Virus record (IMG/VR): IMGVR_UViG_3300030117_002915
Coordinates: 1-33,944 of that record
Length of the DNA: 33,944 nt
Strand: one strand, 5' to 3'
DNA from: a virus
Part shown: positions 3,628 to 24,837 of the stretch, piece after piece
Position numbering within the stretch: position 1 is the first letter of the stretch
How the letters are laid out: each line of letters begins with the position of its first letter
The notes under the pieces: model-generated
Databases searched by the model: none
Told to the model about the DNA's origin: nothing
Seen by the model: the letters and a program-made list of their open reading frames with translations, nothing else
Program-made: the position numbers and the translations under genes

Positions 3628-4007
3628 TGTATAAGTTCGGTAGGCGGAGTCGAGAAAGACTCAAAGGGGTTGATGTTAGGCTGGTCAATGTATTAAATGA
3701 ACTAATTAAAATGATGGATGTTACTATTATTGAAGGACTCCGTTCTGCTGAACGTCAAAAAGAACTTTTAGCAAAAGGAGCTACTAAGGTAAAGTATTCT
3801 AAACACATGGAAGGTAAAGCAGTTGATTTAGCACCATACCCAATAGATTGGGAAAATAGAGATGGGTTTTACTATATGGGTGGAATGATCCGTGGTATAG
3901 CTAAACAAATGGGAATAAATGTAAGGTTTGGCGGAGACTGGGATAGCGATGGGGATACAAAAAACAATTCATTTGACGATTTAGTTCATGTGGAAATTAA
4001 AGATTAA
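3627..4007 (+). CDS. M15-family peptidoglycan peptidase (endolysin)
   Basis: A 126-residue single-domain zinc peptidase of the VanY/M15 type. It shows the family's EGLRSAERQ segment near residue 36, the metal motif SKHxxGxAVDL with His60 and Asp67, and the C-terminal DDLVHVEI with His121 as third ligand. There is no cell-wall-binding domain or signal peptide, so it would need a holin to reach the wall. It ends the block of small late genes that includes the candidate holin and spanin-like proteins, which supports a lysis role. The ATG overlaps the upstream stop. Substrate bond (L-Ala-D-Glu or D-Ala-D-Ala type) cannot be told apart from sequence alone. Confidence 0.85.
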   Translation: MYKFGRRSRERLKGVDVRLVNVLNELIKMMDVTIIEGLRSAERQKELLAKGATKVKYSKHMEGKAVDLAPYPIDWENRDGFYYMGGMIRGIAKQMGINVRFGGDWDSDGDTKNNSFDDLVHVEIKD

Positions 4008-4033
4008 AATTTTGTTAAACATTTAACAAAATT
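4008..4033 (+). terminator. Perfect AT-rich inverted repeat after the peptidase gene
   Basis: Twelve-base arms AATTTTGTTAAA and TTTAACAAAATT are separated by two bases and begin right after the stop codon. It is in the right place for a transcription terminator or transcript-end hairpin, but the stem is weak and no T-run follows, so an operator-type palindrome is an equal possibility. Confidence 0.4.
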
Positions 4034-4075
4034 ACTATTGCATTAAAAATATTTAGAAAGTAAGTTAGGAACAAT

Positions 4076-5026
4076 ATGGCGTATTGTACAACAAGAGATT
4101 TAAAAGATGTATTTCCATCTATAGACGAATTTGACACTAAAACTGCCTTATATGGATTTGTAGTTAGTGCTGGCAGTAGATATGTTGCTAATAATGTGGG
4201 TTTAGTTACTCAGTTATTTGCAAATGGTGAAAATTTAGGGGCAGGACAATCAGGCACATCAGATGTAAACGCTAATGGCAAATGGTACTACGATGATTCA
4301 AATGATGCTGTTTACTACTACAACGATGCAACAAACCCTAATGATATGCTGATTGAGTCAGGAGATGATTGGGATACTCTAAGGACACGCTATATATCAA
4401 ATGCCGAAAAATACCTTGATTCTAGGTTAGATGGCAAACTGCCCCGAAAACAGTTTAAAGACAAAGATGGCAATTATGATTACTCTATCGTAAGAACTAC
4501 AGCACTTATTGCTTGCTATTTTCTTATTAGAGCTAATGATCCTACTTCTGAGGTAGGTAATGCTTTATTTGAAGAAGCAGAAAGAAACATACTGTCATTA
4601 AATGATGGTAGCACCAAGTTATCTTGGCAGGTTTCAGGCGATGCTAGTAAGGGAGTAATTAGACAGGTATCTGTAAGTGGTGCTATAAACATAGTAGATA
4701 CAAGAGGTCACTATTACGATGTGTATGATAAAGTAGGAGTTAAGATTACAACTGCTGGAGCTATAGGAACTGCTGTATATTCTGTTTGGCACAAAGATGC
4801 TGACAAACTAGGTTCTGAAAGAATGAACAATGGTGAAACAGCAGATTACACAGAAACCATTAATGGGCAGTATCAACCATTAGCTAATGATGTTTATATT
4901 AGATTTGCAGGTGACACAGCAGATACAGCTACACTAAATGACAAATGGGAAATAGAGTTTTTTGGCAAGAATGAATCAGTAGATGATGCAGGTATGCCAC
5001 ACTCAATTAGGATGACTAGAACCTAA
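4076..5026 (+). CDS. Head-tail adaptor (DUF1320/gp6-like N-terminus with extra C-terminal domain)
   Basis: Preceded by AGGA at a good distance from the ATG. Residues 1-180 have the logic of head-completion adaptors: an opening CTTRDLKDVFPSID, then a helical segment RYISNAEKYLDSRLDG, then YSIVRTTALIACYFLIRAND and NALFEEAERNIL. The C-terminal 130 residues are beta-rich (KVGVKITTAGAIGTAVYSV) and not part of the classical adaptor, so the protein is about twice the usual length. It is followed with one-base overlap by a tail-terminator-like gene, the normal order in siphoviruses. Confidence 0.65.
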   Translation: MAYCTTRDLKDVFPSIDEFDTKTALYGFVVSAGSRYVANNVGLVTQLFANGENLGAGQSGTSDVNANGKWYYDDSNDAVYYYNDATNPNDMLIESGDDWDTLRTRYISNAEKYLDSRLDGKLPRKQFKDKDGNYDYSIVRTTALIACYFLIRANDPTSEVGNALFEEAERNILSLNDGSTKLSWQVSGDASKGVIRQVSVSGAINIVDTRGHYYDVYDKVGVKITTAGAIGTAVYSVWHKDADKLGSERMNNGETADYTETINGQYQPLANDVYIRFAGDTADTATLNDKWEIEFFGKNESVDDAGMPHSIRMTRT

Positions 5027-5460
5027 TGGCAATTACATTTGTAAACATTTGGGAAACAAAGATTTTGGATACTATTAGAACTTTTCTTAATGATGAGTTT
5101 GCAGGTAGTATCCCAGTATATACAGGAAATTTTAAGGATATGGGCAATCAATCAATTCGCCTAAATCCAGTAGGCTCTAATTTAGTTGAAAGAATGACTA
5201 CAGCAGAGTTAAGAGAATACATTGTAGATGTTTCATATACTTTTAAAGAAAAAATGATTAAAAAAGATACTTGGGAGCATATACTTCGTCAAGTATCACA
5301 TATAGAAGCATTGTTTTTTCAAAATCAAAAAAATACATTTTATAATGGTAGATTTGAAACAACTAGAATTAATGAAAAAGAAGAAGCTGAAGAAGCCATT
5401 GATGGTCTTGTAGTAATAAGATGGGAATGGCGAGGTTTATATTTAGGTAACGTATCTTAA
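5026..5460 (+). CDS. Tail terminator-like / tail completion protein
   Basis: A 144-residue protein between the adaptor and the tail tube gene, the standard place for a tail terminator (lambda gpU-like). It has the expected alpha-beta pattern: an N-terminal helix (ETKILDTIRTFLND), a short PVYTG strand, a central AELREYIVDVSYTF strand and a final strand ending VVIRWEWRGLYLG. No motif is decisive; the call rests mainly on position and size. Confidence 0.5.
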   Translation: MAITFVNIWETKILDTIRTFLNDEFAGSIPVYTGNFKDMGNQSIRLNPVGSNLVERMTTAELREYIVDVSYTFKEKMIKKDTWEHILRQVSHIEALFFQNQKNTFYNGRFETTRINEKEEAEEAIDGLVVIRWEWRGLYLGNVS

Positions 5461-5478
5461 AGTAATAAGGAGTAGGAT

Positions 5479-5652
5479 ATGAAAGTAAAACTAAAAAAGG
5501 GGGAAAAGTTGTCATCAAATAACAACTATTGCAACTTACCCTATGATAAATGGGTAATGCTTAATCAAGGTAAAAGCGTTGAATTAGAAGTATTACCAAA
5601 ACAACTAGATGGTAAAATAGATGAACAAAATTCCAAAAAAGGAGATAAATAA
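5479..5652 (+). CDS. Small hypothetical protein before the tail tube gene (57 aa)
   Basis: A clear AAGGAG precedes the ATG and the stop overlaps the tail tube ATG (TAATG). The product starts MKVKLKKGEKLSSNNNYCNL, has a beta-type middle (KWVMLNQGKSVELEVLP) and a Lys-rich end. Small proteins at this spot occur in many siphoviruses; no function is known to me. Confidence 0.55.
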   Translation: MKVKLKKGEKLSSNNNYCNLPYDKWVMLNQGKSVELEVLPKQLDGKIDEQNSKKGDK

Positions 5653-13748: not shown

Positions 13749-14009
13749 TTATTTTACAAGCAAATCGCAGTCTGGACATATCTTAGCTTCCCATAGTTTC
13801 ATATCAGAGGACTTCCAGAGTTCACCTTCAAATATATTCCATTTCTTGCGACACTCTGGACACCACCAGAGATCTTCATCTGCTCTGATTTCATCTGTTT
13901 TGTGATTTTCCCTAAATCTTGTTTCTACTACATGGCTATCGAGAGCATCAATAACCCATTGAATAGAGCCAAATTTATTTTGGTTTTCCTTTACTTTTTC
14001 TTTCTTCAA
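13749..14009 (-). CDS. Small zinc-ribbon-like protein (CPEC...CPDC)
   Basis: The frame begins at a TTG (14009) with a GGCGG-like ribosome site; no ATG is available. An N-terminal Lys/Glu-rich helix is followed by WWCPECRKKW and, 30 residues later, KICPDCDLL, two CxxC knuckles that should bind one zinc. It overlaps the upstream gene by 35 bases. Function unknown; one of several small CxxC proteins in the early operon. Confidence 0.6.
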   Translation of the reverse strand: MKKEKVKENQNKFGSIQWVIDALDSHVVETRFRENHKTDEIRADEDLWWCPECRKKWNIFEGELWKSSDMKLWEAKICPDCDLLVK

Positions 14010-14301
14010 TTATACCGCCTAGCAATAATAAATAATTTCGTGCATCCTGTATTCTACCAACTATAGGTTCTTCTGATACTTCTTTGCCGTTTAACACATA
14101 GTTTCTTATTGAATCCATATGTTTTAATAAATAAATAAGAGCTACCTGCTCTGCTCTTAAATTCATTCTGTCACCAATGCTTTTAAAGTTTTTAAACTTA
14201 TCCTCATCTGATACTGTATATTCCTCACCCTTAACTAGCATAAGTCTATTCTCTTCATCTTGCATAGATTTTGCCCATCTCATAAAGTGGCTAACCTTCA
14301 T
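13975..14301 (-). CDS. All-alpha phage protein, DUF6378/MazG-like
   Basis: A 108-residue helical protein with LVKGEEYTVSDEDKFKNF, an AEQVALIYLLKHMDSI helix and EEPIVGRIQDARNYLLLLGG. The order 'short acidic/Gly-Glu-Tyr loop, helix with a conserved Lys-His, then D..NY' resembles the small DUF6378-type helical proteins and the wider MazG-like nucleotide pyrophosphatase fold. The assignment is by eye. A ribosome site (AGAGAGG) precedes the ATG, which overlaps the end of the small membrane gene upstream. Confidence 0.5.
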   Translation of the reverse strand: MKVSHFMRWAKSMQDEENRLMLVKGEEYTVSDEDKFKNFKSIGDRMNLRAEQVALIYLLKHMDSIRNYVLNGKEVSEEPIVGRIQDARNYLLLLGGIIEERKSKGKPK

Positions 14302-14428
14302 ACTGAAACCTCTCTATGATTTGTAGGCAGACATGAAAAGTAATTAAAAAAGCTATGGAAAACAAAAGAGAGCTTAAACTAAAAAAAAAGAAAGTTGCAA
14401 CCCATTCCGTAATATTAAACAATATCAT
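14291..14428 (-). CDS. Tiny membrane protein (45 aa)
   Basis: The ATG overlaps the stop of the 14425-14580 gene (ATGA) and is preceded by GGGGAG. The peptide has a long hydrophobic Phe-rich centre (WVATFFFFSLSSLLFSIAFL), consistent with one membrane helix, and a charged tail. It overlaps the next gene by 11 bases. No family recognised. Confidence 0.55.
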   Translation of the reverse strand: MILFNITEWVATFFFFSLSSLLFSIAFLITFHVCLQIIERFQYEG

Positions 14429-14580
14429 TTTACTCCCCTTATTTCATCAATAATATCTTTCTTATCTTTTTTTCTATCCCATCTATCCAGATAGTGATAT
14501 GATATTATTGAAAATATGATAATAGTAACGATGAAAACGTCAAAGGCATTTTCTTGTAGTGATTGTAGCCAATAGCTCAT
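14425..14580 (-). CDS. Tiny membrane protein (51 aa)
   Basis: A strong AAAGGAG precedes the ATG. The product has one membrane helix (VFIVTIIIFSIISY) followed by a highly charged RWDRKKDKKD cytoplasmic tail. It is coupled to the next gene by ATGA. An operator-like palindrome lies 16 bases upstream of its start. No family recognised. Confidence 0.6.
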   Translation of the reverse strand: MSYWLQSLQENAFDVFIVTIIIFSIISYHYLDRWDRKKDKKDIIDEIRGVK

Positions 14581-14596: not shown

Positions 14597-14613
14597 AGTT
14601 AAGGTTCTTAACT
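14597..14613. promoter_or_regulatory. Repeated palindrome AGTTAAG-GTT-CTTAACT (copy 1)
   Basis: Perfect seven-base arms with a three-base spacer, in the gap between the 37-residue ORF and the 14580 gene start. The same palindrome occurs at 20957, 23145 and 24775 and, with one mismatch, at 19052. It looks like the binding site of a dimeric regulator. Confidence 0.6.
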
Positions 14614-14615
14614 TT

Positions 14616-14729
14616 TTAGCATAGGTAGGAAAGGTCAAAGTCTAGCAAAAGTCTTTTACTGTCTCCTACCGCCACTAATTTTTTGCCCCAGTTTTCTTTT
14701 AGTGCCAACCATAAGAAAACATCTGTCAT
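14616..14729 (-). CDS. Possible 37-residue protein
   Basis: A short frame starting MTDVFLWLALKENWGKKL and ending DFDLSYLC. Residue composition looks coding, but no good ribosome site precedes it and a second frame through the same bases (from an ATG about 50 bases upstream with an AGGAAG-like site) is also open for 33 codons. Only one is likely to be real. The area 14730-14820 upstream holds no other convincing gene. Confidence 0.3.
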   Translation of the reverse strand: MTDVFLWLALKENWGKKLVAVGDSKRLLLDFDLSYLC

Positions 14730-14820
14730 TCATTTTTACAAACATACTTAACCACATATCTTCCTGTTTGCTTATGTGTTCAGCTTACAGGTTTAGTTAT
14801 TGATTTATTGGGGCAATTCA

Positions 14821-15042
14821 TTAAATTGATTTTGCCATGTCATCTAAGCAACTTGAACATATATCCTTACTACAAACATGGCAGGTGGTTATTTTGTCTA
14901 AGTCGTTCATAATACTATTAACTATGTAGCTAATAGATGATAATTCTTTTTGTAAACCAATTTTTGATAAATCTGACATTTCTAATTCTGTATGATTCCA
15001 AATCATACTAACTTTATCTCTTATTCTTTCTATATCTTTCAT
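14821..15042 (-). CDS. Small helical protein with CxxC pair (73 aa)
   Basis: AAGGAGAAC precedes the ATG. An N-terminal helical part (MKDIERIRDKVSMIW...) ends in TCHVCSKDICSSCLDD, a compact pair of CxxC motifs likely to bind zinc. Function unknown. Confidence 0.6.
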   Translation of the reverse strand: MKDIERIRDKVSMIWNHTELEMSDLSKIGLQKELSSISYIVNSIMNDLDKITTCHVCSKDICSSCLDDMAKSI

Positions 15043-15053
15043 TTTTGTTCTCC

Positions 15054-15416
15054 TTAAAAATTGAATGATTCTTGAGCTAATCTTGTGATGATCTCCTCAT
15101 AATCATCATCATTAAATTTTACTATTTTATTTTTTCTTTCCTTTAATACTTCGTACCATCGGATGCCACGCTTTTCTACTGCCCATTCAACAAACTCCGC
15201 AGGAGTCTTATGAGCAGAGAATTTTGAGGAGAACACATGGCATCCGACACAGAGACAAAAACCATTATCAATATCCCAACGAACCGAGCGAATAGATCGT
15301 GAATAAAAGTGATGTGCATTTAGGGGTTTCGTCTTGTGGCAATATTCGCACATACCATATTCTTTTATTTTGTCCGACCATACTTTATCTAGCTTTTTTG
15401 ATAATGATTTCTTCAC
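15054..15416 (-). CDS. HNH-type endonuclease / recombination nuclease
   Basis: A 120-residue protein starting at a GTG, six bases after the SSB-like gene. It has the zinc-supported HNH layout: CEYCHKTKPLNAHHFYSR, then DNGFCLCVGCHVFSS, with paired Cys knuckles around the HH dyad. The combination resembles NinG-like or stand-alone phage HNH nucleases. Its place between SSB-like and CxxC genes in the replication operon suggests a recombination or packaging-related nuclease rather than a homing enzyme inserted in a gene. Confidence 0.7.
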   Translation of the reverse strand: MKKSLSKKLDKVWSDKIKEYGMCEYCHKTKPLNAHHFYSRSIRSVRWDIDNGFCLCVGCHVFSSKFSAHKTPAEFVEWAVEKRGIRWYEVLKERKNKIVKFNDDDYEEIITRLAQESFNF

Positions 15417-15422
15417 AGAGAA

Positions 15423-15914
15423 TTAAAATGGGGAATCATCCTCTGTTGATTCAGATGGTGACTTACCTTCTAATACATTCAATAAACTCATCATATTAGC
15501 TTCTATAACAACCAATTCTCCAGTAGTCAGCACCTTGTCTTTTGTACTTATCATATCAACAGCCAACTTCAAACATACCTGCTTGTGAATATCGTGAGTT
15601 CTATTATCTATACTGCTATTTGCAGATGTAGATATAGATTTAGGTTGAGTATCTCCTTGAGGAATAACATTCCATGCAAATTTACCCGGGGCATACTCAT
15701 CTTTCCTAATATTAACTTTAGCACCTCTACCAAATGTACTTAGTTTCTTATGCAGGTTCTCGGTTGCAAAAAAGCTAGTCTCTCGACCTTCTTTATTTAC
15801 ACCATATAAATACCAAGCACCATAAGAATTTTGACCTTGTTTTGGCTGATCATAAAGTAACTCTACAATGTTATCTTTATCTTTTGACAATTTGAATGAA
15901 TCTTTATTTTCCAT
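15423..15914 (-). CDS. Single-stranded DNA-binding protein-like
   Basis: A 163-residue protein preceded by AAAGGAG. The N-terminal 75 residues are beta-rich (NSYGAWYLYGVNKEG, RGAKVNIRKDEY) as expected of an OB fold, a low-complexity Ser/Asn linker follows, and the last residues are ESTEDDSPF. An acidic tail ending in D-x-PF is the hallmark of bacterial-type SSB proteins, where it recruits partners. The middle helical segment (GELVVIEANMMSLLNV) is not typical of SSB. Position among replication and recombination genes supports the call. Confidence 0.65.
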   Translation of the reverse strand: MENKDSFKLSKDKDNIVELLYDQPKQGQNSYGAWYLYGVNKEGRETSFFATENLHKKLSTFGRGAKVNIRKDEYAPGKFAWNVIPQGDTQPKSISTSANSSIDNRTHDIHKQVCLKLAVDMISTKDKVLTTGELVVIEANMMSLLNVLEGKSPSESTEDDSPF

Positions 15915-16167
15915 GTTTCTCCTTTGCTTTTAATATGGTTTTAACTGATTCTGTAATATCTTTCCATTTCTCGACATCATGCCCTTCATAGGTTTCAAAT
16001 GATGCACATTCCAAATATGGATCACGAGCTTTGAAAAGTAAAAGATACTCACTAACTCCTTCAAGAAGATCGTCTATGCTATATCTGACTATTGTTTGTT
16101 CTCCATCTGTATTTTCAAAATACCTGCCATCATCATCAACATATCCATCCCAACAAATAGTAGCCAT
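15904..16167 (-). CDS. Small acidic hypothetical protein (87 aa)
   Basis: Start placed at the ATG at 16167, where an AGGGAAG lies at good distance; a longer frame to 16218 overlaps the upstream gene. The product is acidic and aromatic (TICWDGYVDDDGRYFEN, LLEGVSEYLLLF) and ends Lys-rich. It overlaps the SSB-like gene by 11 bases. No family recognised. Confidence 0.55.
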   Translation of the reverse strand: MATICWDGYVDDDGRYFENTDGEQTIVRYSIDDLLEGVSEYLLLFKARDPYLECASFETYEGHDVEKWKDITESVKTILKAKEKHGK

Positions 16168-16180
16168 ATAAACATCTTCC

Positions 16181-16315
16181 CTATTCAACTGGAACAACCT
16201 TACAGTTGTTACGCTCAAGAAGTTTTACAACCATCATTCTGATAGCATCAATCTCCTCTTGAGTTAGTTCTTCTGGAAATTCTACCCTGAATTTTCCTTG
16301 TGTTATTTCTTTCAT
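16181..16315 (-). CDS. Small hypothetical protein (44 aa)
   Basis: AAGGAG precedes the ATG. The peptide (MKEITQGKFRVEFPEELTQ...) is a strand followed by a helix (EEIDAIRMMVVKLLE) and a short basic/hydrophobic tail. Likely first gene of the segment driven by the promoter at 16334-16363. No family recognised. Confidence 0.55.
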   Translation of the reverse strand: MKEITQGKFRVEFPEELTQEEIDAIRMMVVKLLERNNCKVVPVE

Positions 16316-16333
16316 ACGTTCTCCTTATGTTTG

Positions 16334-16363
16334 AATATAATAAATTGAAATAATATAAATCAA
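16334..16363 (-). promoter_or_regulatory. Candidate sigma70-type promoter inside the early operon
   Basis: On the minus strand a TTGATT lies 18 bases before TATATT in the gap after the phosphoesterase gene, with the start codon of the 44-residue gene downstream. It would give the SSB/HNH/NinB-like genes their own transcript. Spacing is slightly long and the -35 matches four of six consensus bases. Confidence 0.45.
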
Positions 16364-16365
16364 GT

Positions 16366-17130
16366 CTATCCCTTAATTAATTCACCCCACAACGATGTTT
16401 TACCATTCACTATTTGAACTAAGTGAACTGTAAAAAATCCTGAATAATAAAAATCAACGATAGCAAAAGCGTGTTGCCAATTATGTTGCCTATTACCTAA
16501 CCACTCATTTGATTCTGCACTCATATCTTTTAAGCAACCTATTGACCAAGCCGATTTGACTCCATCAATATGGGTAACGGAAGATTGCTGTATATCGTGA
16601 TGGTGTCCATACATAACATTACCACCAAGACGAAGCAGATGGTTGCGAGTGTGATTAATACCAGCGAAATGATGTCCATGATAAAAGTTGAGCTTTCCAA
16701 TTTTAAGCATCTTGCCCAATGGGTGGTATTTATAACCACGCTGTCCCAATTTAATAGCATTTTTAACCAAAAAATCCTTAGCAAGGTAGGGATTTTCTTC
16801 AACAAATCTGTTAAGCCAGTCCTCATGGTTTCCTTCAACAAAATGTTTCTCCTTTACGTTTACTTTATCTAATGATTCATCAATTATATCCATTCCTTTA
16901 TTTACCTCTTCAATCTCTTTTGCAACGAATGGTAATTGATATTCTAATGGTGGTCTTTTCTTTTTCTTCCATTGCCAATGGGAAACCGATTCCCATTCTC
17001 CAGTATCCCCAAGATCAATATAACCATCAGGTTTTATAATCTCGATAGCCTGACATACAACACTTATAGCTTTCATATCAGCCATAGGAAAATGTTTATC
17101 AGGTGTTACTATATACCTTTTAACTTTCAT
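16366..17130 (-). CDS. Calcineurin-like metallophosphoesterase
   Basis: A 254-residue protein with all the landmarks of the family: TPDKH (Asp11, His13), DLGDTGEW (Asp42), EGNHED (Asn101, His102), FYHGHH (His151) and YGHHHD (His176-178), which together hold two metal ions. Phage members act on nucleic acid ends or nucleotide phosphates; the exact substrate is unknown. It lies in the replication operon between a small helical gene and the SSB-containing segment. Full length, no missing motif. Confidence 0.85.
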   Translation of the reverse strand: MKVKRYIVTPDKHFPMADMKAISVVCQAIEIIKPDGYIDLGDTGEWESVSHWQWKKKKRPPLEYQLPFVAKEIEEVNKGMDIIDESLDKVNVKEKHFVEGNHEDWLNRFVEENPYLAKDFLVKNAIKLGQRGYKYHPLGKMLKIGKLNFYHGHHFAGINHTRNHLLRLGGNVMYGHHHDIQQSSVTHIDGVKSAWSIGCLKDMSAESNEWLGNRQHNWQHAFAIVDFYYSGFFTVHLVQIVNGKTSLWGELIKG

Positions 17131-17144
17131 AAACGCTTACCTCT

Positions 17145-17375
17145 TTATATTTTTTGTGATACATATTCTTGAAATAAATCCCATTGAGCAACAGAATCAA
17201 CTCCAAAATGTTTTTCCTCTAGTTTTTTTACAAAATCTTTTTCAGAAAGATTATTTAATTTTTTCTTTAAATGTTTTGTACAAATCTTTTTTAATCTCCA
17301 GTAAGGTAAACAATGAATATATAAATCTATAAATTCTTTTGTAAGTTTTTTTCTAGTTATGTTTTCTTTTTTCAT
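17145..17375 (-). CDS. Basic helical hypothetical protein (76 aa)
   Basis: Rich in Lys and aromatic residues (KKLTKEFIDLYIHCLPYW, KHLKKKLNNLSEKDF) with a final VAQWDLFQEYVSQ helix. The ATG overlaps the upstream gene's stop by four bases. No family recognised; charge suggests nucleic-acid contact. Confidence 0.5.
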   Translation of the reverse strand: MKKENITRKKLTKEFIDLYIHCLPYWRLKKICTKHLKKKLNNLSEKDFVKKLEEKHFGVDSVAQWDLFQEYVSQKI

Positions 17376-17593
17376 ATTAACTCCGAATTAAGCCACATAT
17401 CAAGTGCTTTTTCCCATTGCTGATAAGTAGCTTTATTATTATTATAATTAACCCATACTTGGTCAAATTCTTTCCAGTATCTATTTCTCATATGTCTTAT
17501 GTGTCTTTCCATACTTTGATTGTTCCATTTATTTATATCCATATCTCCTAACCTATTCAAAAAGATTTTCTTTAGGTTCTTCGATGTATTCAT
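17372..17593 (-). CDS. Helical hypothetical protein (73 aa)
   Basis: GAGG lies about nine bases before the ATG at 17593, so the 41-base overlap with the primase-helicase gene is probably real. A second ATG (MDINKWNN) has an AGGAG only two bases away, too close to use. The product is Trp/Asn-rich helix (HIRHMRNRYWKEFDQVWVNY). No family recognised. Confidence 0.5.
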   Translation of the reverse strand: MNTSKNLKKIFLNRLGDMDINKWNNQSMERHIRHMRNRYWKEFDQVWVNYNNNKATYQQWEKALDMWLNSELI

Positions 17594-19241
17594 AATATTT
17601 TCCTCTAACTATATCGTATTTTAATTTAATGGGGGAATTTTGATTTGGCTTTCCATTTTTATACTGAAATCTAATCTTATGAACATGAATACCTGCATAA
17701 TCTTCCTCATCACTTCTGTGTCTATGCACAGTAATTGCATTGTCACATTTATTAAACCAGTTAGCTGATCCAGAAATATCATATGGTGTAGGCACAACTG
17801 GTTTACGATCAACCCCATTCTCCATCTTTCTAGGGTGTGCTACAACCCATATGTGCATCTCATTAACTTTGGAAAATGCACTTAGTTGAGCAAGTACCCT
17901 TGAAACATATAAAGTCTCATTCTCACCATCTCCAAACTTATGTTCTAATGTATTCCACGGATCAATAATTAATCCATTTAAACCAAATCTAAAATTTAAA
18001 ATCTTAGCTTGTTCTATAATGGATTCTATTGTAACGGAATCTTCCTGAGTTCCAATAAATTTTATATGCTCATTTAATATTTTCATTGAACTTCTGGCTG
18101 TATCTTCATCTAACTTTTCATCTCCCCAAAATGGCTTTCCAGTAAATTTACCAACCAGTTTTAATAAGTGGTGTTCAACTGGAAAGTTCTCTGCTGAAAA
18201 AACACCAAACTTCCACCCATAAGATTGTATCATGTTAATCATAACAGAATCCATCCATTCAGACTTCCCCATATTTGGCACACCAGTTATAACAGTAACC
18301 TCTGATGGACTTACTAAATAATGAGGATCAACACTAGACCAACCAGTAGATAGACCTTGAACTTGTGGCTTTAATAATAAATCAATGGCATCATCTTCAA
18401 TGTCTTGAATCATAACAACACCATCAATAGGATATGGATGTGCATTACTTACAATATCCTGAACCGCATCTTCTCCATGCTTTATAAGTACATCATTCAT
18501 GTCCTTACATCCATCTGGATATACCACTCTAAAGCATTTTTCCCTACCTATACGCCTAGATAATTCATCTCTCAGGTGTTTACCTGCCCCATCGGAATCT
18601 GTGCATAATATAATAGTATTTGCACTCATTAAGTGATCTTCTGCCGATATAAGGTAGCTAAATTTTCTATCACTAGGTTTTGAATTTGGGGCGGTTGCAC
18701 CATCTGGAACAGATACAACATTCATAAATCCAGATTGAACTAATGCTAGTGCATCCATCTCGCCCTCAGTTATAATAATTGTCTCCATTCCTTTCATGTG
18801 GTCAAATCTATAAAAACATTTTTCAGCATTTTTAGATTGCATAAATTTCTTATCAGATGTCCTAGATTTTATATTAACAACTTCACCATCCTTATAAAAG
18901 GGAAATTGTATCCATCTATTGTTATATCCAATTTTTTCAGAATCTACAACAACCCTAGAAATTCCACGATCCTCAAACCATTGATAGACTTTTTCAGGAA
19001 TATTTGTTTTTGGCGGATCAGGTAATGTCGGTATTGGAACTACATCAGAAAAGTTATGCTCCTTAACTTTTTTCAATGTTCCCTTCCACCCACAATGATG
19101 GCAATTCCAAACTCCCTCATCTATATTAACAGACAAGCATGGATCAGATGTTTTCTTTCTACTACTAGAACACTTTGGGCATTGTATTTTTTCTTGCCCA
19201 GATGTTCCCTTTACAAAAATCCCATTCTCCTCAAATGTCAT
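17553..19241 (-). CDS. Replicative primase-helicase (T7 gp4 / Twinkle-like)
   Basis: Start chosen at the second ATG (GGAG seven bases upstream) rather than the ATG four codons earlier, which has no ribosome site. Domains: a zinc finger CPKC...CHHCGW at about residues 21-50, an insertion, a Toprim core with TEGEMDAL (about 159-165) and CTDSDGAG (about 213-220), then a RecA-like helicase with Walker A GVPNMGKSEW (about 320) and a Walker B-like LNGLIIDPW. It should make RNA primers and unwind DNA at the fork. Length (562 residues) suits the family. It sits between the initiator and small genes. Confidence 0.9.
   Translation of the reverse strand: MTFEENGIFVKGTSGQEKIQCPKCSSSRKKTSDPCLSVNIDEGVWNCHHCGWKGTLKKVKEHNFSDVVPIPTLPDPPKTNIPEKVYQWFEDRGISRVVVDSEKIGYNNRWIQFPFYKDGEVVNIKSRTSDKKFMQSKNAEKCFYRFDHMKGMETIIITEGEMDALALVQSGFMNVVSVPDGATAPNSKPSDRKFSYLISAEDHLMSANTIILCTDSDGAGKHLRDELSRRIGREKCFRVVYPDGCKDMNDVLIKHGEDAVQDIVSNAHPYPIDGVVMIQDIEDDAIDLLLKPQVQGLSTGWSSVDPHYLVSPSEVTVITGVPNMGKSEWMDSVMINMIQSYGWKFGVFSAENFPVEHHLLKLVGKFTGKPFWGDEKLDEDTARSSMKILNEHIKFIGTQEDSVTIESIIEQAKILNFRFGLNGLIIDPWNTLEHKFGDGENETLYVSRVLAQLSAFSKVNEMHIWVVAHPRKMENGVDRKPVVPTPYDISGSANWFNKCDNAITVHRHRSDEEDYAGIHVHKIRFQYKNGKPNQNSPIKLKYDIVRGKYYEYIEEPKENLFE
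19052..19068. promoter_or_regulatory. Palindrome copy with one mismatch, inside the primase-helicase gene
   Basis: AGTTATG-CTC-CTTAACT matches the early-operon palindrome except for one base in one arm, and the AAAA/TTTT flanks are kept. It encodes KVKEHNF near residue 60 of the primase. See the perfect copies at 14597, 20957, 23145 and 24775. Confidence 0.4.
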
Positions 19242-19242
19242 T

Positions 19243-20037
19243 TTATCTCCCATTTAAATATTTATGTTGAATGTTCTGAAACTTAGTAAATCCATTTTCA
19301 GATTTTTTTCTCAGTGACTTTATGCTGAGTAAAGTCTTGCCCCAAAACTTATCATGTACTGCCCAGCTTATAACATTCTTAATATCATCATACTCAAAAC
19401 CATCTTTTTTAATTAAATCATAAAGTATATTTATACTGCCATTTACAATATCAAGGTTATCATCCCAATTTTTTTCTATTATGTTTGGGTATCTCGATTC
19501 TTGTATATTATAAAAATCTTTTACAATTTTATACAAAGCATTTTTCTGCTTTCCGCTGATCTGATTATTTAGCTTAGTATCTTTAGAATTGCCATTGGTA
19601 TATACTTTTCTTATACTATTATTATTATATAATAATGATTGGGTATTTTGACTAAGCATATTGCCATTTAATTGTAATTCACCCTCGTTATTATTATTAC
19701 CCCCTACGTTATTTTGCACATAGGGTAATTTAGAATTGTTATTTAGATATAGGCAATTTTGTATAGGGGTAATATATCTTTTCTTAAATTTTTTAGTATT
19801 TTCTTCGTACTCATATACTATGTTTATAAACCCATATTTTCTCAAGCTAGATATACTTCTTGAGGCTGTGTCTTTGCTCATGTCAAACACCCTGCTAAAA
19901 TAAGAATTGTTCTTAACACAAACCCCATCTTTTTCTAAGCAAGCCATAATCTCTGCAAAAATTAATTTGGCATTTGCTGTTAATTCAGTATGGTATCTCA
20001 CATCACTAGGCATAACTGCATAATAACTACTTTGCAT
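19243..20037 (-). CDS. Replication initiator / replisome organiser with winged helix
   Basis: A 264-residue protein. Residues 1-75 form a winged HTH (LTANAKLIFAEIMACL, then FSRVFDMSKDTASRSISSL) of the HTH_36 kind common in phage replication proteins. A long Asn/Ser-rich linker follows (about 95-165), then a helical domain ending in FWGKTLLSIKSLRKKSENGF, the kind of C-terminal end seen in DnaD/lambda O-like organisers. It lies one base before the primase-helicase gene, a pairing like O/P or initiator/helicase modules. The linker DNA could hold an origin, as in lambda O; I see no clear iterons there. Confidence 0.75.
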   Translation of the reverse strand: MQSSYYAVMPSDVRYHTELTANAKLIFAEIMACLEKDGVCVKNNSYFSRVFDMSKDTASRSISSLRKYGFINIVYEYEENTKKFKKRYITPIQNCLYLNNNSKLPYVQNNVGGNNNNEGELQLNGNMLSQNTQSLLYNNNSIRKVYTNGNSKDTKLNNQISGKQKNALYKIVKDFYNIQESRYPNIIEKNWDDNLDIVNGSINILYDLIKKDGFEYDDIKNVISWAVHDKFWGKTLLSIKSLRKKSENGFTKFQNIQHKYLNGR

Positions 20038-20057
20038 TTATTTCTTCTCCTTTTTGA

Positions 20058-20089
20058 TTGGGTAGGGTAATTTATAAAACCCCACCCAA
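20058..20089 (-). other. GC-rich hairpin before the initiator gene
   Basis: Arms TTGGGTAGGG and CCCCACCCAA pair over nine of ten positions around a 12-base AT loop, 20 bases upstream of the initiator start codon. Such a stem is unusual in this AT-rich genome. There is no T-run on the coding strand side, so an ordinary terminator is unlikely; a transcript-stabilising or attenuating structure is possible. Confidence 0.5.
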
Positions 20090-20103
20090 CCTATTGCCTT
20101 ATG

Positions 20104-20322
20104 TTATTTATTACCTTGTACTGGTTTTAGGCATAGTTCAAAATATTCACATTTCTTCCCATCTAAAACAGCACACTTTTTATAAGCATATTCTTCATTG
20201 ATCCATTGATTAAGTTTCTCACCTATCATTATACCAGAACATTTAAAACCGACATTATAATTGGCACATTCTTTTTTTATGAATGTCTCTATATTGTTTT
20301 TTTCTCGGTTCATTCTTAGCAT
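20104..20322 (-). CDS. Cys-rich small protein (CxYFExCLKP type)
   Basis: GAGG precedes the ATG. The 72-residue product has six Cys in the pattern KKECANYNVGFKC ... KKCAVLDGKKCEYFELCLKP. The 'kC...g..C.YFE.CvlP' ending is one I recall in small phage and mobile-element proteins of unknown function; it should bind zinc or an Fe-S cluster. Confidence 0.6.
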   Translation of the reverse strand: MLRMNREKNNIETFIKKECANYNVGFKCSGIMIGEKLNQWINEEYAYKKCAVLDGKKCEYFELCLKPVQGNK

Positions 20323-20349
20323 TGGATTATCCTCTATCTCTTACGATTT

Positions 20350-20613
20350 TTAAAAAAGAATGGCATCTTTGATCCAGAATTTTATTGGAACCACTAGCTT
20401 GTTTTCGCCACCTAATAATTTAGTCCATCCATATTCAATCGCCCATTTTTTTGAAATGCTATACCTATACCGATTGGTAATATAAACAATTTTAGTTAAA
20501 GATTCAAGAGAAACCTCATCTAAATTAATTGTCCATGATCCACCGCCCATCCTTAATTTACTAGATTCTTTTTCATATTTAGTTAGTACACCATCTTTTA
20601 TAAATTGCTTCAT
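20350..20613 (-). CDS. Small basic hypothetical protein (87 aa)
   Basis: Coupled to the upstream gene by ATGA. Text such as MGGGSWTINLDEVSLESLTK and VYITNRYRYSISKKW suggests an alpha-beta fold. No family recognised. Confidence 0.5.
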   Translation of the reverse strand: MKQFIKDGVLTKYEKESSKLRMGGGSWTINLDEVSLESLTKIVYITNRYRYSISKKWAIEYGWTKLLGGENKLVVPIKFWIKDAILF

Positions 20614-20942
20614 GATACACCATGCTCCGTGAATTTTCCAAAGGGATAATCTTCTTTCATTTTTTCATCTGCCATTCTTCGGATTTTTTCTCCATGTTTT
20701 TCATAAATAGCCTTTCTTATAAAGTCTAGGTATTGATCTATACTTTCTTGATTGACTACAAAATGATGTATGAAGTGACTTGCTAAAAATTCATGAAACA
20801 CCATAGGAACAATTATTTCTGTTGAATCTAATTCTTCGTGGTTTGTTTCTTGCCATTCTGTTATAGCATCTTCAACTAAGTCAAAAAGATCGCTATAATC
20901 TTGTTTTAGCATCTCATTATTCTCTTTATCATGTTTACACAT
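20610..20942 (-). CDS. Acidic helical hypothetical protein (110 aa)
   Basis: AAAGGAG before the ATG and an operator-like palindrome just upstream. Predominantly helical (YSDLFDLVEDAITEWQE, then FHEFLASHFIHHFV and IRKAIYEKHGEKIRRM). The His-rich middle is notable but matches no metal motif I know. No family recognised. Confidence 0.55.
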   Translation of the reverse strand: MCKHDKENNEMLKQDYSDLFDLVEDAITEWQETNHEELDSTEIIVPMVFHEFLASHFIHHFVVNQESIDQYLDFIRKAIYEKHGEKIRRMADEKMKEDYPFGKFTEHGVS

Positions 20943-20954
20943 ACTGTTCTCCTT

Positions 20955-21227
20955 TTAGTTAAGTTCCTTAACTTTTATTCTTCTTGTGTAGAACTTATTT
21001 ACAAACTCTTTCTGAGATAAGTTTGAGCAATGTAAACAAGTTACTTTTTCTTTTCCATAGCTAGGAAAATTTTTATAATAATATACATTTTTCAATGATA
21101 CTTTTTTGCGATCTATTGACGTTATTCTCCTTACTACCTCCCAACATTGCCTACAGCTAGTACAATACCTGATGGTTTTATCCGCCAATTTTGCTTCAAA
21201 TTCATAATCTATATTTTTTTGTCTCAT
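20955..21227 (-). CDS. Small zinc-ribbon-like protein (CTSC...CLHC)
   Basis: Start placed at the ATG at 21227 (GGAG seven bases upstream); the frame could extend four codons to a TTG. The 90-residue protein has RYCTSCRQCWE and TCLHCSNL, two CxxC knuckles separated by about 40 residues, plus a basic C-terminus. Its last codons coincide with palindrome copy 2. Function unknown. Confidence 0.6.
   Translation of the reverse strand: MRQKNIDYEFEAKLADKTIRYCTSCRQCWEVVRRITSIDRKKVSLKNVYYYKNFPSYGKEKVTCLHCSNLSQKEFVNKFYTRRIKVKELN
20957..20973. promoter_or_regulatory. Repeated palindrome AGTTAAG-TTC-CTTAACT (copy 2)
   Basis: Perfect seven-base arms, 15 bases upstream of the 20942 gene start. It also forms the last codons of the 20955-21227 gene, encoding its KVKELN end. 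Confidence 0.6.
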
Positions 21228-21229
21228 TA

Positions 21230-21406
21230 TTATCTCCAAATTGCTATGTTGCTTAGTTTAAGAATGCGATTCTTAATCAGAGCTTGATCTCTGTAAAAAT
21301 CTAGCTTATGATTCATAATATTAAGGTCTGTTTTAAGTTTTGCCACCCAAATCATAGGTAGGCAAAATATAAGACCTAATATAATTTCTAATATAAAACT
21401 AATCAA
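21230..21406 (-). CDS. Small membrane protein with TTG start (58 aa)
   Basis: Begins at a TTG preceded by AAGGGGG. An N-terminal membrane helix (ISFILEIILGLIFCLPMIW) is followed by a positively charged helix. It overlaps the previous gene by eight bases and ends two bases before the next ATG, so it fits the operon exactly. No family recognised. Confidence 0.5.
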   Translation of the reverse strand: MISFILEIILGLIFCLPMIWVAKLKTDLNIMNHKLDFYRDQALIKNRILKLSNIAIWR

Positions 21407-21539
21407 CGTAACCCCCTTGTTTTTTATCCTTCATTATAGATTCTAAAAACTGCTTGATTTCTACAAGTTCGGAATAGTACAAAACATCCCTAATTAAATA
21501 CATAATGCCTTCTACTAAACTCATTCTATCTTTTTTCAT
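21399..21539 (-). CDS. Small hypothetical protein (46 aa)
   Basis: AAGGAG precedes an ATG that overlaps the upstream stop. A single amphipathic helix-rich peptide (MSLVEGIMYLIRDVLYYSEL...) ending KDKKQGGYVD. No family recognised. Confidence 0.55.
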   Translation of the reverse strand: MKKDRMSLVEGIMYLIRDVLYYSELVEIKQFLESIMKDKKQGGYVD

Positions 21540-21703
21540 TTGTTCTCCTTTATTGTAAATACCCAATTACCACCATTTTCTACAAACATACTTGGGTTAT
21601 CTTTTACTGTTTCTTTTACGCTATCAATATGATAGTAATATTCATAGCCTACAATATCACTTTCATATTTTCCAAGATTTACATTAAATAGTATAAAATT
21701 CAT
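21536..21703 (-). CDS. Small hypothetical protein (55 aa)
   Basis: GAGGAG precedes the ATG. The product has an opening MNFILFNVNLGKYES, a Tyr-rich GYEYYYHIDSV segment and NGGNWVFTIKENK at the end. Overlaps the upstream gene by 20 bases. No family recognised. Confidence 0.55.
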   Translation of the reverse strand: MNFILFNVNLGKYESDIVGYEYYYHIDSVKETVKDNPSMFVENGGNWVFTIKENK

Positions 21704-21914
21704 TATTTATCTCCTCTTTATGTTTTTTAAATCTGCTATTTAAACATGGATCGCATAACCAATCATCCTCAGTAAATAAATCATTCATCCATTTATCATC
21801 ATAATCATGTACTTTATTTAAACTGCCATATAATTCATCCATATCTTTTATCTCAAAGCAATCTGTACATTTTGCTTTATGATATTCATATAAATAAACA
21901 TCTGTTTCTAACAT
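21684..21914 (-). CDS. Small acidic zinc-ribbon-like protein (CTDC...CDPC)
   Basis: Start placed at the ATG at 21914, which follows AGAGGAG; the frame runs back to 21965 without a ribosome site. The 76-residue product contains AKCTDCFEIKDMDE and, after an acidic stretch, WLCDPCLNSRFKKH. Two CxxC pairs about 35 residues apart should bind zinc. This layout resembles small phage proteins with a ribbon and acidic insert; function unknown. Confidence 0.6.
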   Translation of the reverse strand: MLETDVYLYEYHKAKCTDCFEIKDMDELYGSLNKVHDYDDKWMNDLFTEDDWLCDPCLNSRFKKHKEEINNEFYTI

Positions 21915-21968
21915 ATTTTCTCCTCTAGTTAATTTGAAATTATATATATTGAATATAAAAGTCAACCT

Positions 21969-22532
21969 CTATTTTTCCATTCTGGATTGTATTAATTTAT
22001 CCCAGCCATTTTTAGGTTTTGGTGTTGGTAGATCATACCATTTTTTTGCCCATCTGCGAGGGTTTTGGTTTTTATATTTTGATTCAATATGTTTTTCCTT
22101 AAAAGAAAATTCTCTAACGTGCCTAACCCCCTTATTTTCATTGGGATAATAAATAATATGATCATAATCATCTATAAAACCACGATCAATAGGTACGGCA
22201 ATCCAATCAGCATAATTCTCAGTAATATTTACTTTTAAAGATTTTCCATAGGAAGTATTATAAGCTATGGTATGATACTTTACTTGGATCGTTATTAAAT
22301 CAATTTTCCATTTATTTTTCCATAGTTTCGGTTTAAAACAAACTAAATCAATTCCCCAAGTATCTGCGGATTGATTAAATACTTGATAATCATTCTCAAG
22401 CAAATGATTTTCTACCCGATTTTCCCCTATTTTACCAATGATTGCCGTATTTAGATGTGCGATCTTAGTATCATCTTGCAATCTGGTAGATTTATAAGGT
22501 GCGTGTTTACCCCCTTGACGTTTTTTTCTCAT
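21969..22532 (-). CDS. PD-(D/E)XK nuclease, resolvase-like
   Basis: A 187-residue protein. Residues 30-90 carry the core of the fold: IIGKIGENRVENHLLE (Glu37), DTWGIDLVCFKP (Asp62) and ITIQVKYH (Gln83, Lys85). The arrangement GxxGE, then GID, then QVK is that of archaeal-type Holliday junction resolvases and related Mrr-like nucleases. A basic N-terminal tail could contact DNA. In this operon it could resolve recombination or replication intermediates before packaging. Aromatic C-terminal region is not assigned. Confidence 0.65.
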   Translation of the reverse strand: MRKKRQGGKHAPYKSTRLQDDTKIAHLNTAIIGKIGENRVENHLLENDYQVFNQSADTWGIDLVCFKPKLWKNKWKIDLITIQVKYHTIAYNTSYGKSLKVNITENYADWIAVPIDRGFIDDYDHIIYYPNENKGVRHVREFSFKEKHIESKYKNQNPRRWAKKWYDLPTPKPKNGWDKLIQSRMEK

Positions 22533-22795
22533 TATATTTCGCCCTTTATAATTTGTGAAATAACCTCTAATTTATAAAGTAGCGTTTTAGCGTTGCCGGT
22601 TATACCGAAATATTTTCTAACGTCTTTTAATCTAAATTTTCTATTTGCTACACCTATAATATTTTTATTCCAAAGTTTTAAAGCACCTTTAGTAGTTATC
22701 AAATTATAAACACCTAGTGATACCCCATTATAATTTGGCTTCGATTCAATATCTTTTAAAAATTGGCAGTCCTGATCTATTTCTATTTTTTTCAT
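22532..22795 (-). CDS. Small hypothetical protein (87 aa)
   Basis: Start placed at the ATG at 22795 after GGGGGT; an upstream TTG also fits the frame. Contains SLGVYNLITTKGALKLWNK and KFRLKDVRKYFGITG, a helical pattern that could be a small DNA-binding domain. Stop overlaps the nuclease gene's ATG. No family recognised. Confidence 0.5.
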   Translation of the reverse strand: MKKIEIDQDCQFLKDIESKPNYNGVSLGVYNLITTKGALKLWNKNIIGVANRKFRLKDVRKYFGITGNAKTLLYKLEVISQIIKGEI

Positions 22796-22796
22796 T

Positions 22797-22886
22797 TTAT
22801 TTACCCCCAAATATTTTTAAACCTATATATCGGAATAATAAAAAAATTAAAGCCATATATAATAATTCTATGATAGTAATTAACAT
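22797..22886 (-). CDS. 29-residue membrane peptide
   Basis: An ATG preceded by GGGGGT, product MLITIIELLYMALIFLLFR followed by a short basic end: one membrane helix. It exactly fills the gap between two genes. Function unknown. Confidence 0.4.
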   Translation of the reverse strand: MLITIIELLYMALIFLLFRYIGLKIFGGK

Positions 22887-22887
22887 T

Positions 22888-23103
22888 TTACCCCCTTTTA
22901 CCAATGTTTTTAATTACAGAAACCTCTAGCGTAATGTCTTCTATTTCTTCAATTTCTTCTTGACTTATCTTATGCCCGAATAGATCTTGTAAAATATATT
23001 CAAATTCAATTCCGTTTTTTCTTTCAAAGTCTGATTTATATAAAGTTATTTCCTCTTTATAAAAACCCTCTTTTAATTCCTTTGCTCTTTTTTTACTTAA
23101 CAT
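22888..23103 (-). CDS. Small charged hypothetical protein (71 aa)
   Basis: AAGGGGG precedes the ATG. The product starts MLSKKRAKELKEGFYKEE and continues with an acidic helix (SQEEIEEIEDITLEV) and a basic end. No family recognised. Palindrome copy 3 lies upstream. Confidence 0.5.
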   Translation of the reverse strand: MLSKKRAKELKEGFYKEEITLYKSDFERKNGIEFEYILQDLFGHKISQEEIEEIEDITLEVSVIKNIGKRG

Positions 23104-23115
23104 TTTAAACCCCCT

Positions 23116-23622
23116 TTAAAATTTTGAAAAATCAAATTTTGAAAAGTTAAGTTCCTTAACTTTTTTATTTGATTCAACTTTAATTATTTCTGTTATCGGT
23201 TTTTTTCTGTCGGCTGTCCAATCATGCACAATATTATTTTTAACGGCTAAGACATGGTTTTTAACCCCTAGTAAATAGTTGCCCTTTGGTAAATAGTTGT
23301 CAAAATTATTTACTGTTAGTCCGGTTCTTGAATTAACAAAACACAAGGATTGATTTTCTCTATTTTTCCAAGTCCATGTATTTTTATTAATGTATGATAG
23401 TTTATAGGTGTATAGCTTAAAGCCGTATTTTTCAGCCAAATTCCGCATTAAATTCTTGTAGGTGTACCACCCCAAGCCTTTACCATTTTTCCGCCCATTT
23501 TGGGCGAAATACGAATGAATTTCGTTATAGTCTTTATTGAATATGATACTAGCACTAATCACAGTACAACAGTTATTATCATTCTCAAAAGCTATCTTTT
23601 TAATATCTTTATAATTTTGCAT
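23116..23622 (-). CDS. Papain-like fold protein (possible cysteine peptidase)
   Basis: A 168-residue early protein preceded by GAGGGG. It has DNNCCTVISASIIFNK with tandem Cys18-Cys19 at the start of a helix, and later LLGVKNHVLAVKNNIVHDW with His123 and Asp134. The order N-C-helix, then H-V-x-A-V, then D-W matches the Cys/His/Asp layout of a group of small papain-like phage proteins I recall in which substrate is unknown. Palindrome copy 3 encodes its KKVKELNFS segment near the C-terminus. It might act on host proteins early in infection. Confidence 0.5.
   Translation of the reverse strand: MQNYKDIKKIAFENDNNCCTVISASIIFNKDYNEIHSYFAQNGRKNGKGLGWYTYKNLMRNLAEKYGFKLYTYKLSYINKNTWTWKNRENQSLCFVNSRTGLTVNNFDNYLPKGNYLLGVKNHVLAVKNNIVHDWTADRKKPITEIIKVESNKKVKELNFSKFDFSKF
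23145..23161. promoter_or_regulatory. Repeated palindrome AGTTAAG-TTC-CTTAACT (copy 3)
   Basis: Perfect arms, extended here to ten bases by AAA/TTT flanks, inside the 3' end of the papain-like gene and about 42 bases before the next start codon at 23103. Confidence 0.6.
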
Positions 23623-23659
23623 TTATTCCCCTCATTGATACCTAGACCTTTGCGGTTTC

Positions 23660-23683
23660 GGGGGGATCAATGAAAATCCCCCC
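23660..23683 (-). other. Very stable GC-rich hairpin between early genes
   Basis: GGGGGGAT and ATCCCCCC form a perfect eight-base stem around CAATGAAA in the 74-base gap between the 24314 gene and the papain-like gene. It has no T-run in either direction, so it is not a classical terminator. It may stabilise or process the polycistronic early RNA, or partly terminate transcription. Confidence 0.55.
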
Positions 23684-23696
23684 TCATCAGTAGGAT

Positions 23697-24314
23697 TTAT
23701 AAGCCGTTTTTTTCTATGCTTTCAATCACAGCTTTTAAAGATTCAAAATCATACATCTCTAAATTTTTTGAATCTGCTTTCGTACCATTAAATAAACCCT
23801 CTCTTTTTTCTGATCGCATCCATTTTAATAATCTTTCTTCTAGTCTGTCAGCTTTCTGTTCCTTGTACATTCTCACAAGTCTATATTTTCCGATATCAGT
23901 CTCATTAAAATTATCAACGTATTTCCCCTCTTCATTTTCAACCATTGGCTTATTTACTTTTTTTAATGTTGCTGTCATTGTCTTGTGATCGTCTTCTAAA
24001 ATTGCCAACTGTGTAGGCTTTTCCTTTACTAGGGTTTGGATCTGATTTTTTACGAACCTCTTTAACTGTTTTCTAACTTCTAATAATTCTTGAAGTTTCT
24101 CGCCTTTGATTTTATCGTCTTTTGAGGTGTTCATGATATTGTCAAATTTTTTAGTTAACTGGGTTTCGTTGTTTTCATCCGCATGATGTAAATCTCTAGT
24201 AATTACATCTGTTACCGATTTACTTTTCTCAACCAATACCAGACCATCATTCAAAACTTGATCAATTTCTTTTTTGGTTGGTTTTTTCATTGTTACGTTA
24301 GTGTTACTTTTCAT
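23697..24314 (-). CDS. Charged coiled-coil hypothetical early protein (205 aa)
   Basis: AGGAG precedes the ATG. A Lys/Glu-rich, largely helical protein with EKLQELLEVRKQLKRFVKN and EQKADRLEERLLKWMRSEK, opening MKSNTNVTMKKPTKKEID. No family recognised. Second gene of the leftward early operon, so it is among the first phage proteins made. Confidence 0.55.
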   Translation of the reverse strand: MKSNTNVTMKKPTKKEIDQVLNDGLVLVEKSKSVTDVITRDLHHADENNETQLTKKFDNIMNTSKDDKIKGEKLQELLEVRKQLKRFVKNQIQTLVKEKPTQLAILEDDHKTMTATLKKVNKPMVENEEGKYVDNFNETDIGKYRLVRMYKEQKADRLEERLLKWMRSEKREGLFNGTKADSKNLEMYDFESLKAVIESIEKNGL

Positions 24315-24318
24315 GGTT

Positions 24319-24675
24319 TTATTTCTCCTCTATTAGTGTTCTTAAAAAATTGTTTAGTAGTTTTTTTCTTTCTTCCTTTGCTTGTTCATAGTTTAAACCA
24401 CTATTAAACGCTGTTAATTTTGAAGCTACTGTGTCGTATTCTCTGACTGTTTTATAGTCTATTCTTTTTCCTATCGGTGAATATCCGGTCGAAATTATCA
24501 CCCTTTGACCATTGACACTTAATTGATAATAATCACACGCCCAGCCATTGACACCGCTTGAATATGCGAAAGGGTTTTCATCCCTTAATAGATACTGTAG
24601 TTCACAATACCCGACAGCATACAAGTTACCCCTTGTATTTTCTCGGATTTGTTTCTTGGTTGTTTTTAACTTCAT
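24319..24675 (-). CDS. First gene of the early operon; conserved hypothetical protein
   Basis: Two starts are possible. The ATG at 24675 gives 118 residues beginning MKLKTTKKQIRENTRG, the way I recall homologues starting, with GGAG 12 bases upstream. The ATG at 24732 gives 137 residues and sits seven bases after a -10 box (24740-24745), which would make a leaderless mRNA. The body has a conserved YAVGYCELQYLLRDENPF, SGVNGWACDYYQL and ISTGYSPIGKRIDYKTV. Similar proteins occur in Gram-positive phages and plasmids by my recollection; function unknown. Confidence 0.6.
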   Translation of the reverse strand: MKLKTTKKQIRENTRGNLYAVGYCELQYLLRDENPFAYSSGVNGWACDYYQLSVNGQRVIISTGYSPIGKRIDYKTVREYDTVASKLTAFNSGLNYEQAKEERKKLLNNFLRTLIEEK

Positions 24676-24739
24676 TTTGTTTTGTTTCTCCTCATGGCTA
24701 ACGCCATTGTTATTTAAATCAATATTTAACATGATGAAA

Positions 24740-24767
24740 ATCTTACACCCTTTAGGTTAATAATCAA
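24740..24767 (-). promoter_or_regulatory. Candidate promoter of the leftward early operon
   Basis: On the minus strand TTGATT is followed after 16 bases by TAAGAT. Palindrome copy 4 lies seven bases upstream of the -35, a position suited to activation or repression. Transcription would start at about 24733, next to the ATG at 24732. Confidence 0.45.
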
Positions 24768-24774
24768 GTAAAAA

Positions 24775-24791
24775 AGTTAAGTTTCTTAACT
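24775..24791. promoter_or_regulatory. Repeated palindrome AGTTAAG-TTT-CTTAACT (copy 4)
   Basis: Perfect seven-base arms, extended to ten by AAA/TTT, directly upstream of the early operon promoter in the non-coding control region. This is the copy best placed to be a true operator. Confidence 0.65.
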
Positions 24792-24837
24792 TTTATTTAC
24801 TCCTTATATATGGAAGAGGAAAAAACTCTGGTTTTTT

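Follow-up and report, generated by a model that had tools for sequence, protein, structure and literature searches.

Only a few groups of phages are known to have dispersed operators that extend into operons and coding sequence. In switches of the ImmR/ImmA type, ImmR is a helix-turn-helix (HTH) repressor and ImmA is a metalloprotease. The stoperators of the cluster A mycobacteriophages (L5, TipsytheTRex) are asymmetric 13-mers, which occur more than 20 times per genome; the repressor binds them as a monomer and has an HTH at its N terminus together with a stoperator domain (PMC9283540, PMC6550527). In the Bacillus phage SPbeta the master repressor, MrpR, has a tyrosine-recombinase fold, and the SPBRE element is found in promoter regions (PMC10516654).

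The DNA described here, called the window, is the whole 33,944-nucleotide stretch of IMG/VR record IMGVR_UViG_3300030117_002915. Copies of a palindrome, AGTTAAG-N3-CTTAACT, are scattered along it. We put at about 0.68 the probability that these palindromes serve as dispersed DNA operators for a regulator encoded by the phage, most probably P205, an orphan protein of 205 residues; this is apparently an independent case of dispersed operators, in uncultured phages. As in cluster A, one phage regulator apparently has many dispersed sites, which are found at the early promoter and in the short gaps between genes; one putatively autoregulatory site lies at the regulator's own gene, and the site motif differs from genome to genome in step with the regulator (partial Mantel r 0.40 for P205). 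Unlike the asymmetric 13-bp site of cluster A, the site here is palindromic with a core spacer of 3-5 nt. Furthermore, there are about five to nine sites per genome, some of them in coding sequence, and no HTH was recognised in the candidate P205, which has a protease gene next to it. The resemblance to SPBRE and MrpR is that one master repressor of unexpected fold would act through a short element repeated at several promoters of the phage. However, P205 gave no tyrosine-recombinase match, and most of the sites described here are located at gene junctions. A regulator gene adjoining a protease gene is also reminiscent of the ImmR/ImmA-type switches, but the protease in this case is papain/C39-like and its action on P205 is putative.

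The palindrome in the window and in related phages

Exact copies of the palindrome, for which no strand is assigned, are found at four positions. The first (14597-14613) is 18 nt before the start of gene 14425-14580. The second (20957-20973) covers the last codons of gene 20955-21239 and is 16 nt before the start of gene 20610-20942, and the third (23145-23161) is in the C-terminal codons of a gene encoding P168, the next gene being 43 nt further on. Both of these lie within coding sequence, in the final codons of the upstream gene (KVKELN). The fourth, operator-like copy (24775-24791), the lead site, is upstream of a putative early promoter. A copy with one mismatch (19052-19068) is at about codon 62 of the primase-helicase gene, in the stretch encoding the linker that follows the zinc ribbon. 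The positions and sequences of these five copies in the original prediction were correct, and so were the A-tract ahead of the left arm on the minus strand and the location of four of the five sites 15-45 nt before a start codon, the fifth being that inside the primase-helicase gene.

The AGTTAAG palindrome is the only inverted repeat with 7-nt arms that is seen four times in the window. No palindrome with arms of this length recurred more than twice in 60 third-order Markov simulations, and the recurrence of the exact palindrome is not due to chance, as had been predicted. A scan of the window at three mismatches counted 5 palindromes compared to 4.1 expected by chance; therefore the signal resides in the near-exact copies. 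An Rfam search of the window gave no match. The prediction that the motif is restricted to the early half turned out to be wrong. A copy of a type that differs from that of the early sites of this genome, TGTTAAA-N2-TTTAACA, is present at 4013-4028 (again without strand), in the gap that separates the endolysin-like gene 3627-4007 from the late gene 4076-5026. In most relatives that bear palindromes the equivalent position is occupied by one, usually of the early type of the same genome.

More than 250 related loci were collected by an exact scan of IMG/VR and by protein searches with the primase-helicase, the terminase and the product of gene 4076-5026. Recurring palindromes were sought blind in each locus, and the search repeatedly returned variants of one element, either GTTAA[A/G], the spacer being 1-3 nt, or TTTAAG-N2. 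The core, GTTAA-N3..5-TTAAC, is conserved, occurring 121 times in 25 palindrome-bearing relatives (489 kb) compared to once in 28 others (405 kb), and the next best arm among permuted controls gave 29 copies. The palindromes are an all-or-none trait among the relatives. They occupy shared places: upstream of the early promoter, the last P168 codons, the junction before 20610-20942, the primase linker after the zinc ribbon, the vicinity of 14425-14580 or the end of 15423-15914, and the region before the late gene. The junction palindrome at 20957 is found at the corresponding junction in most relatives, and in many relatives the C-terminal codons of P168 bear a palindrome of the local type. Site-bearing relatives have a palindrome in the primase linker; the linker of site-free relatives is ordinary, similar in length and devoid of a palindrome. 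The purine-only spacers of the original prediction are not a general property, because the relatives do not conserve them.

Several minor observations and discarded candidates belong here. Half-palindrome remnants (AAAGTTAAACATTAC and similar) are located upstream of the 4076-5026 homolog in L340, L339, L287 and L303; L340 is a genome without seen sites, yet it has this late-site remnant, as if the site had decayed. The sequence TTTAAAAACTTTAAA in gene 13975-14301 was set aside because it is found at the same place of this gene in relatives, including site-free ones. An internal start of a helicase-only form, driven by the primase copy, was considered and dropped, since no conserved in-frame Shine-Dalgarno (SD) sequence with ATG was seen by eye. 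No cultured relative was found by DNA searches, and literature text searches found no earlier report of the palindrome motif. One contig of a Flavobacterium metagenome-assembled genome, with an 84% terminase match, was too weak a clue to the host to be used.

P205 and its protease-like neighbour

P205 (23697-24314, minus strand) was singled out by clustering all open reading frames of the relatives with and without the palindrome, and its co-occurrence with the sites makes it the candidate operator-binding regulator. It is encoded by 25 of the 26 chosen site-bearing relatives, the lone exception being a truncated contig, and by none of 28 others. Among the loci with enough sequence upstream of the primase, all 25 site-bearing ones contain P205 and all 11 site-free ones lack it. 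Three independent state changes can be placed on the primase tree, with palindromes and P205 concordant in all of them, although three changes are too few for a significant sign test alone, and independent gains or losses number only about four. Taken together with the concerted change of the sites described below, the all-or-none occurrence and the co-occurrence with one gene family strongly support the dedicated regulator that was originally proposed, acting in trans, and P205 is probably the protein that acts on the palindromes.

It had been noted that no obvious repressor gene is present. A candidate does exist, but it is a member of no known family: P205 gave no family match in Pfam, NCBIfam, PHROGs or the Protein Data Bank (PDB) and no match among phage records, and neither a recognisable HTH nor an HTH family match was found. 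The AlphaFold2 model has a pLDDT of 90.6. Compared with the PDB, it had no fold match at E below 2, the tyrosine-recombinase fold of MrpR included. The one clear structural match is to an unnamed viral protein, A0A516M4L5.

The partner gene of P205 encodes P168 (23116-23622, minus strand), in which Cys19, His123 and Asp134 are invariant. Its structure resembles the PCAT1 peptidase domain (Z 8.2), Josephin (Z 7.3) and other papain-like proteases as well. With an invariant Cys and His and a papain-like predicted fold, P168 is classified as a putative papain/C39-like cysteine protease. It is present in 23 of the 26 site-bearing relatives, where it usually adjoins P205. L125 and L131 have P205 and the sites and are devoid of P168. 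Loci with P168 and no P205-like gene (L402, L405, L406 and L407) showed no recurrent palindrome; for the Pseudomonas and Acidovorax phages among them (PaGz-1 and ACP17) this applies to the 8 kb around the P168 homolog. The proteins of L406 (NC_073603.1 gp086) and L407 (NC_041997.1 gp016) are distant P168-like proteins, annotated as hypothetical or peptidase; these two loci are from cultured Pseudomonas and Acidovorax phages and have neither P205 nor recurrent palindromes nearby.

Concerted change of the sites and their recognition

The type of a site is defined by its spacer and by three of its bases, namely the flanking one, the first and the sixth. Within one genome, two sites have an identical type in 0.62 of the pairs, compared to 0.14 after shuffling (maximum 0.26 of 5000). 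The late site stands on the other strand, several kb from the early sites, and its type matches the early type of the same genome (p = 5e-5, 13 genomes, two of which are represented by near-identical contigs). Site types differ even between closely related phages. In the lineage of L126, L148 and L243 nearly all early and late sites read GTTAAA-N2-TCTAAC. The window itself is an exception, having A-GTTAAG-N3 early and T-GTTAAA-N2 late, unlike nearly all of the relatives compared; this is most simply explained if the late module was exchanged recently or if the assembly is chimeric. When corrected for primase distance, the partial Mantel correlation with site type is 0.40 for P205 and 0.46 for P168, compared to 0.23 or less for eight other genes and 0.38 (n = 16) for 20610-20942. 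The association of the latter gene and the slightly higher value of P168 argue against P205 specifically.

These data bear on three other explanations. The sites might belong to a host regulator and have been adopted by the phage; such half-sites are typical of bacterial repressors, but the presence of the sites follows a phage gene, and their types vary among close phages while matching between early and late sites of one genome, which makes this origin improbable. Spreading of a mobile palindromic repeat (REP or RPE-like) in these genomes would account for the copies inside coding sequence. It is hardly credible, however, because the copies are few, occupy conserved places without a larger repeated unit, change in sequence together and are absent where P205 is absent, and because the primase linkers of site-free relatives are similar in length. 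Several dispersed palindromes under one phage protein would also look like the parS-like, DNA-organising sites of a partition or condensation protein. No ParA-like gene was seen among the annotated genes, and the sites cluster at promoters and gene starts, so that a centromere function is very improbable.

The RNA hairpin, which was the other half of the original prediction, fared less well than the regulator. According to it, a phage protein would bind or cut a stem before the ribosome-binding site and set the ends, stability or translation of the mRNA. Many sites do end close to a following Shine-Dalgarno sequence (for 41 of 105 an SD with ATG follows at 8-50 nt, where 15% is expected), and 5-bp stems with 3-5-nt loops are possible. 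Furthermore, a sense-strand A-tract precedes most sites in both operons, giving them a direction, for which an RNA element would account and a mere palindrome does not. Nevertheless, the stem GTTAA is invariant in sequence and not merely paired, whereas the 3-5-nt loops vary freely. Predicted hairpin energies range from about -1 to -12 kcal/mol across the sites, and the GTTAAA-N1 type is nearly unstable at about -1.8 kcal/mol. In L126, L148 and L243 the sense stem has an A-C mismatch at nearly all early sites and a G-U pair at the late one, and the lead site is upstream of a canonical promoter. Recognition of DNA is more likely than that of RNA because base identity is kept while the length and sequence of the spacer vary, and because of the A-C mismatch lineage; the hairpin reading as a whole is unlikely. 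Intrinsic terminators were rejected separately: the stem is AT-rich, the mean minimum free energy is -3 to -6 kcal/mol and a downstream U-run is not conserved.

The putative early promoter (24740-24767, minus strand) consists of TTGATT at 24767-24762, a 16-nt spacer and TAAGAT at 24745-24740. The layout is alike in most relatives, with TTGACA, TTGACT or TTGCAT and TAnnnT boxes, and a sigma70-like promoter follows the lead site in nearly all lineages where a lead site is seen. A promoter-like element, TTGCAT-N17-TAAGTT (4038-4066, plus strand), is positioned directly upstream of the late gene 4076-5026. The boxes of both elements end only about 7-10 nt before the ATG, similarly to several relatives, and therefore the mRNAs of the first early gene and of 4076-5026 may be translated as leaderless or nearly leaderless messages, judging from the sequence. 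In many lineages the lead palindrome is closely preceded by a block, CATATATAAGG[A/T]GTA (24797-24812 in the window).

P205 could instead be an activator, the palindrome by the -35 box recruiting RNA polymerase to early and late promoters. The lead palindrome is usually 8-15 nt upstream of a TTGACA-like -35 box in the relatives that show it, and late sites are mostly 7-10 nt upstream of TTG-type boxes, which would suit such a role. On the other hand, this distance is not fixed, reaching 21-31 nt in some relatives, and most sites are within the primase gene or at junctions too tight to hold a promoter. Relatives conserve the late promoter-like element whether or not they have the palindrome, so the regulator would modulate promoters and not create them. 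Activation is thus rather doubtful.

Preference is therefore given to the operators of P205. From the observed motif, its conservation, its co-occurrence with P205 and its concerted evolution, we infer that P205 would bind half-sites of about 7 bp, [A/T]GTTAA[A/G], as a dimer or as two monomers, with the two half-sites about one helical turn apart. It would be mainly a repressor. One operator, which precedes the -35 box of the early promoter of the regulator itself, would provide autoregulation, another would precede the promoter-like element of the late gene, and the rest would be at gene junctions and within the primase-helicase gene. Initiation might be damped at the promoter sites and elongating RNA polymerase hindered at the internal ones, in a stoperator-like manner. 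The neighbouring C39-like protease may remove or modify the regulator. The spacing of the half-sites, which varies by 2 bp and sometimes does so in one genome, is unusual for a rigid dimer and argues against this arrangement.

Similar pairs in otherwise unrelated phages

A search with a P168 profile added phages that otherwise have nothing in common with the window; of these, L395 served as a held-out test. It encodes both P168 and P205 (hhalign E 9e-19 for P205) and has four GTTAAG-N1-CTTAAC sites: before P205, between P205 and P168, after P168 and at another junction further downstream. In L400 and L396 the position of P205 is taken by two proteins that are 31% identical to each other. They were not accepted as relatives of P205, since the similarity is suggestive only (hhalign E 0.0041, probability 8%). 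The recurrent sites of these two phages differ: there are six copies of TTACAG-N-CTGTAA and five, slightly variable ones of AGTTTTACAG-N-CTCGAAAACT, again at junctions and in the C-terminus of P168. In L396 the copies of the site retain two internal mismatches, a further point against an RNA stem.

It may tentatively be proposed, as something rather less than an even chance, that P205 founds a new class of sequence-specific DNA-binding regulators, outside the known folds, and that, together with a C39-like partner, it constitutes a transferable switch in unrelated phages, the specificity of which has diversified. If so, the switch specificities would include GTTAAG, GTTAAA and TTTAAG with spacers of 1-3, and TTACAG in other phages, and the switch would exert dispersed control over early and late genes, possibly with superinfection exclusion by type. 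Across about 20 genomes the orphan protein and the site, the spelling of which follows the protein, form a matched pair; this makes the code between site and protein directly testable and offers a candidate function for two unannotated gene families.

Another type of repeat, TGAGAATGA, is found upstream of P205 or its analogue in L131 (about 5400-5500), L395 (about 5185) and L400 (5000-5070). These repeats resemble host Fur-type boxes.
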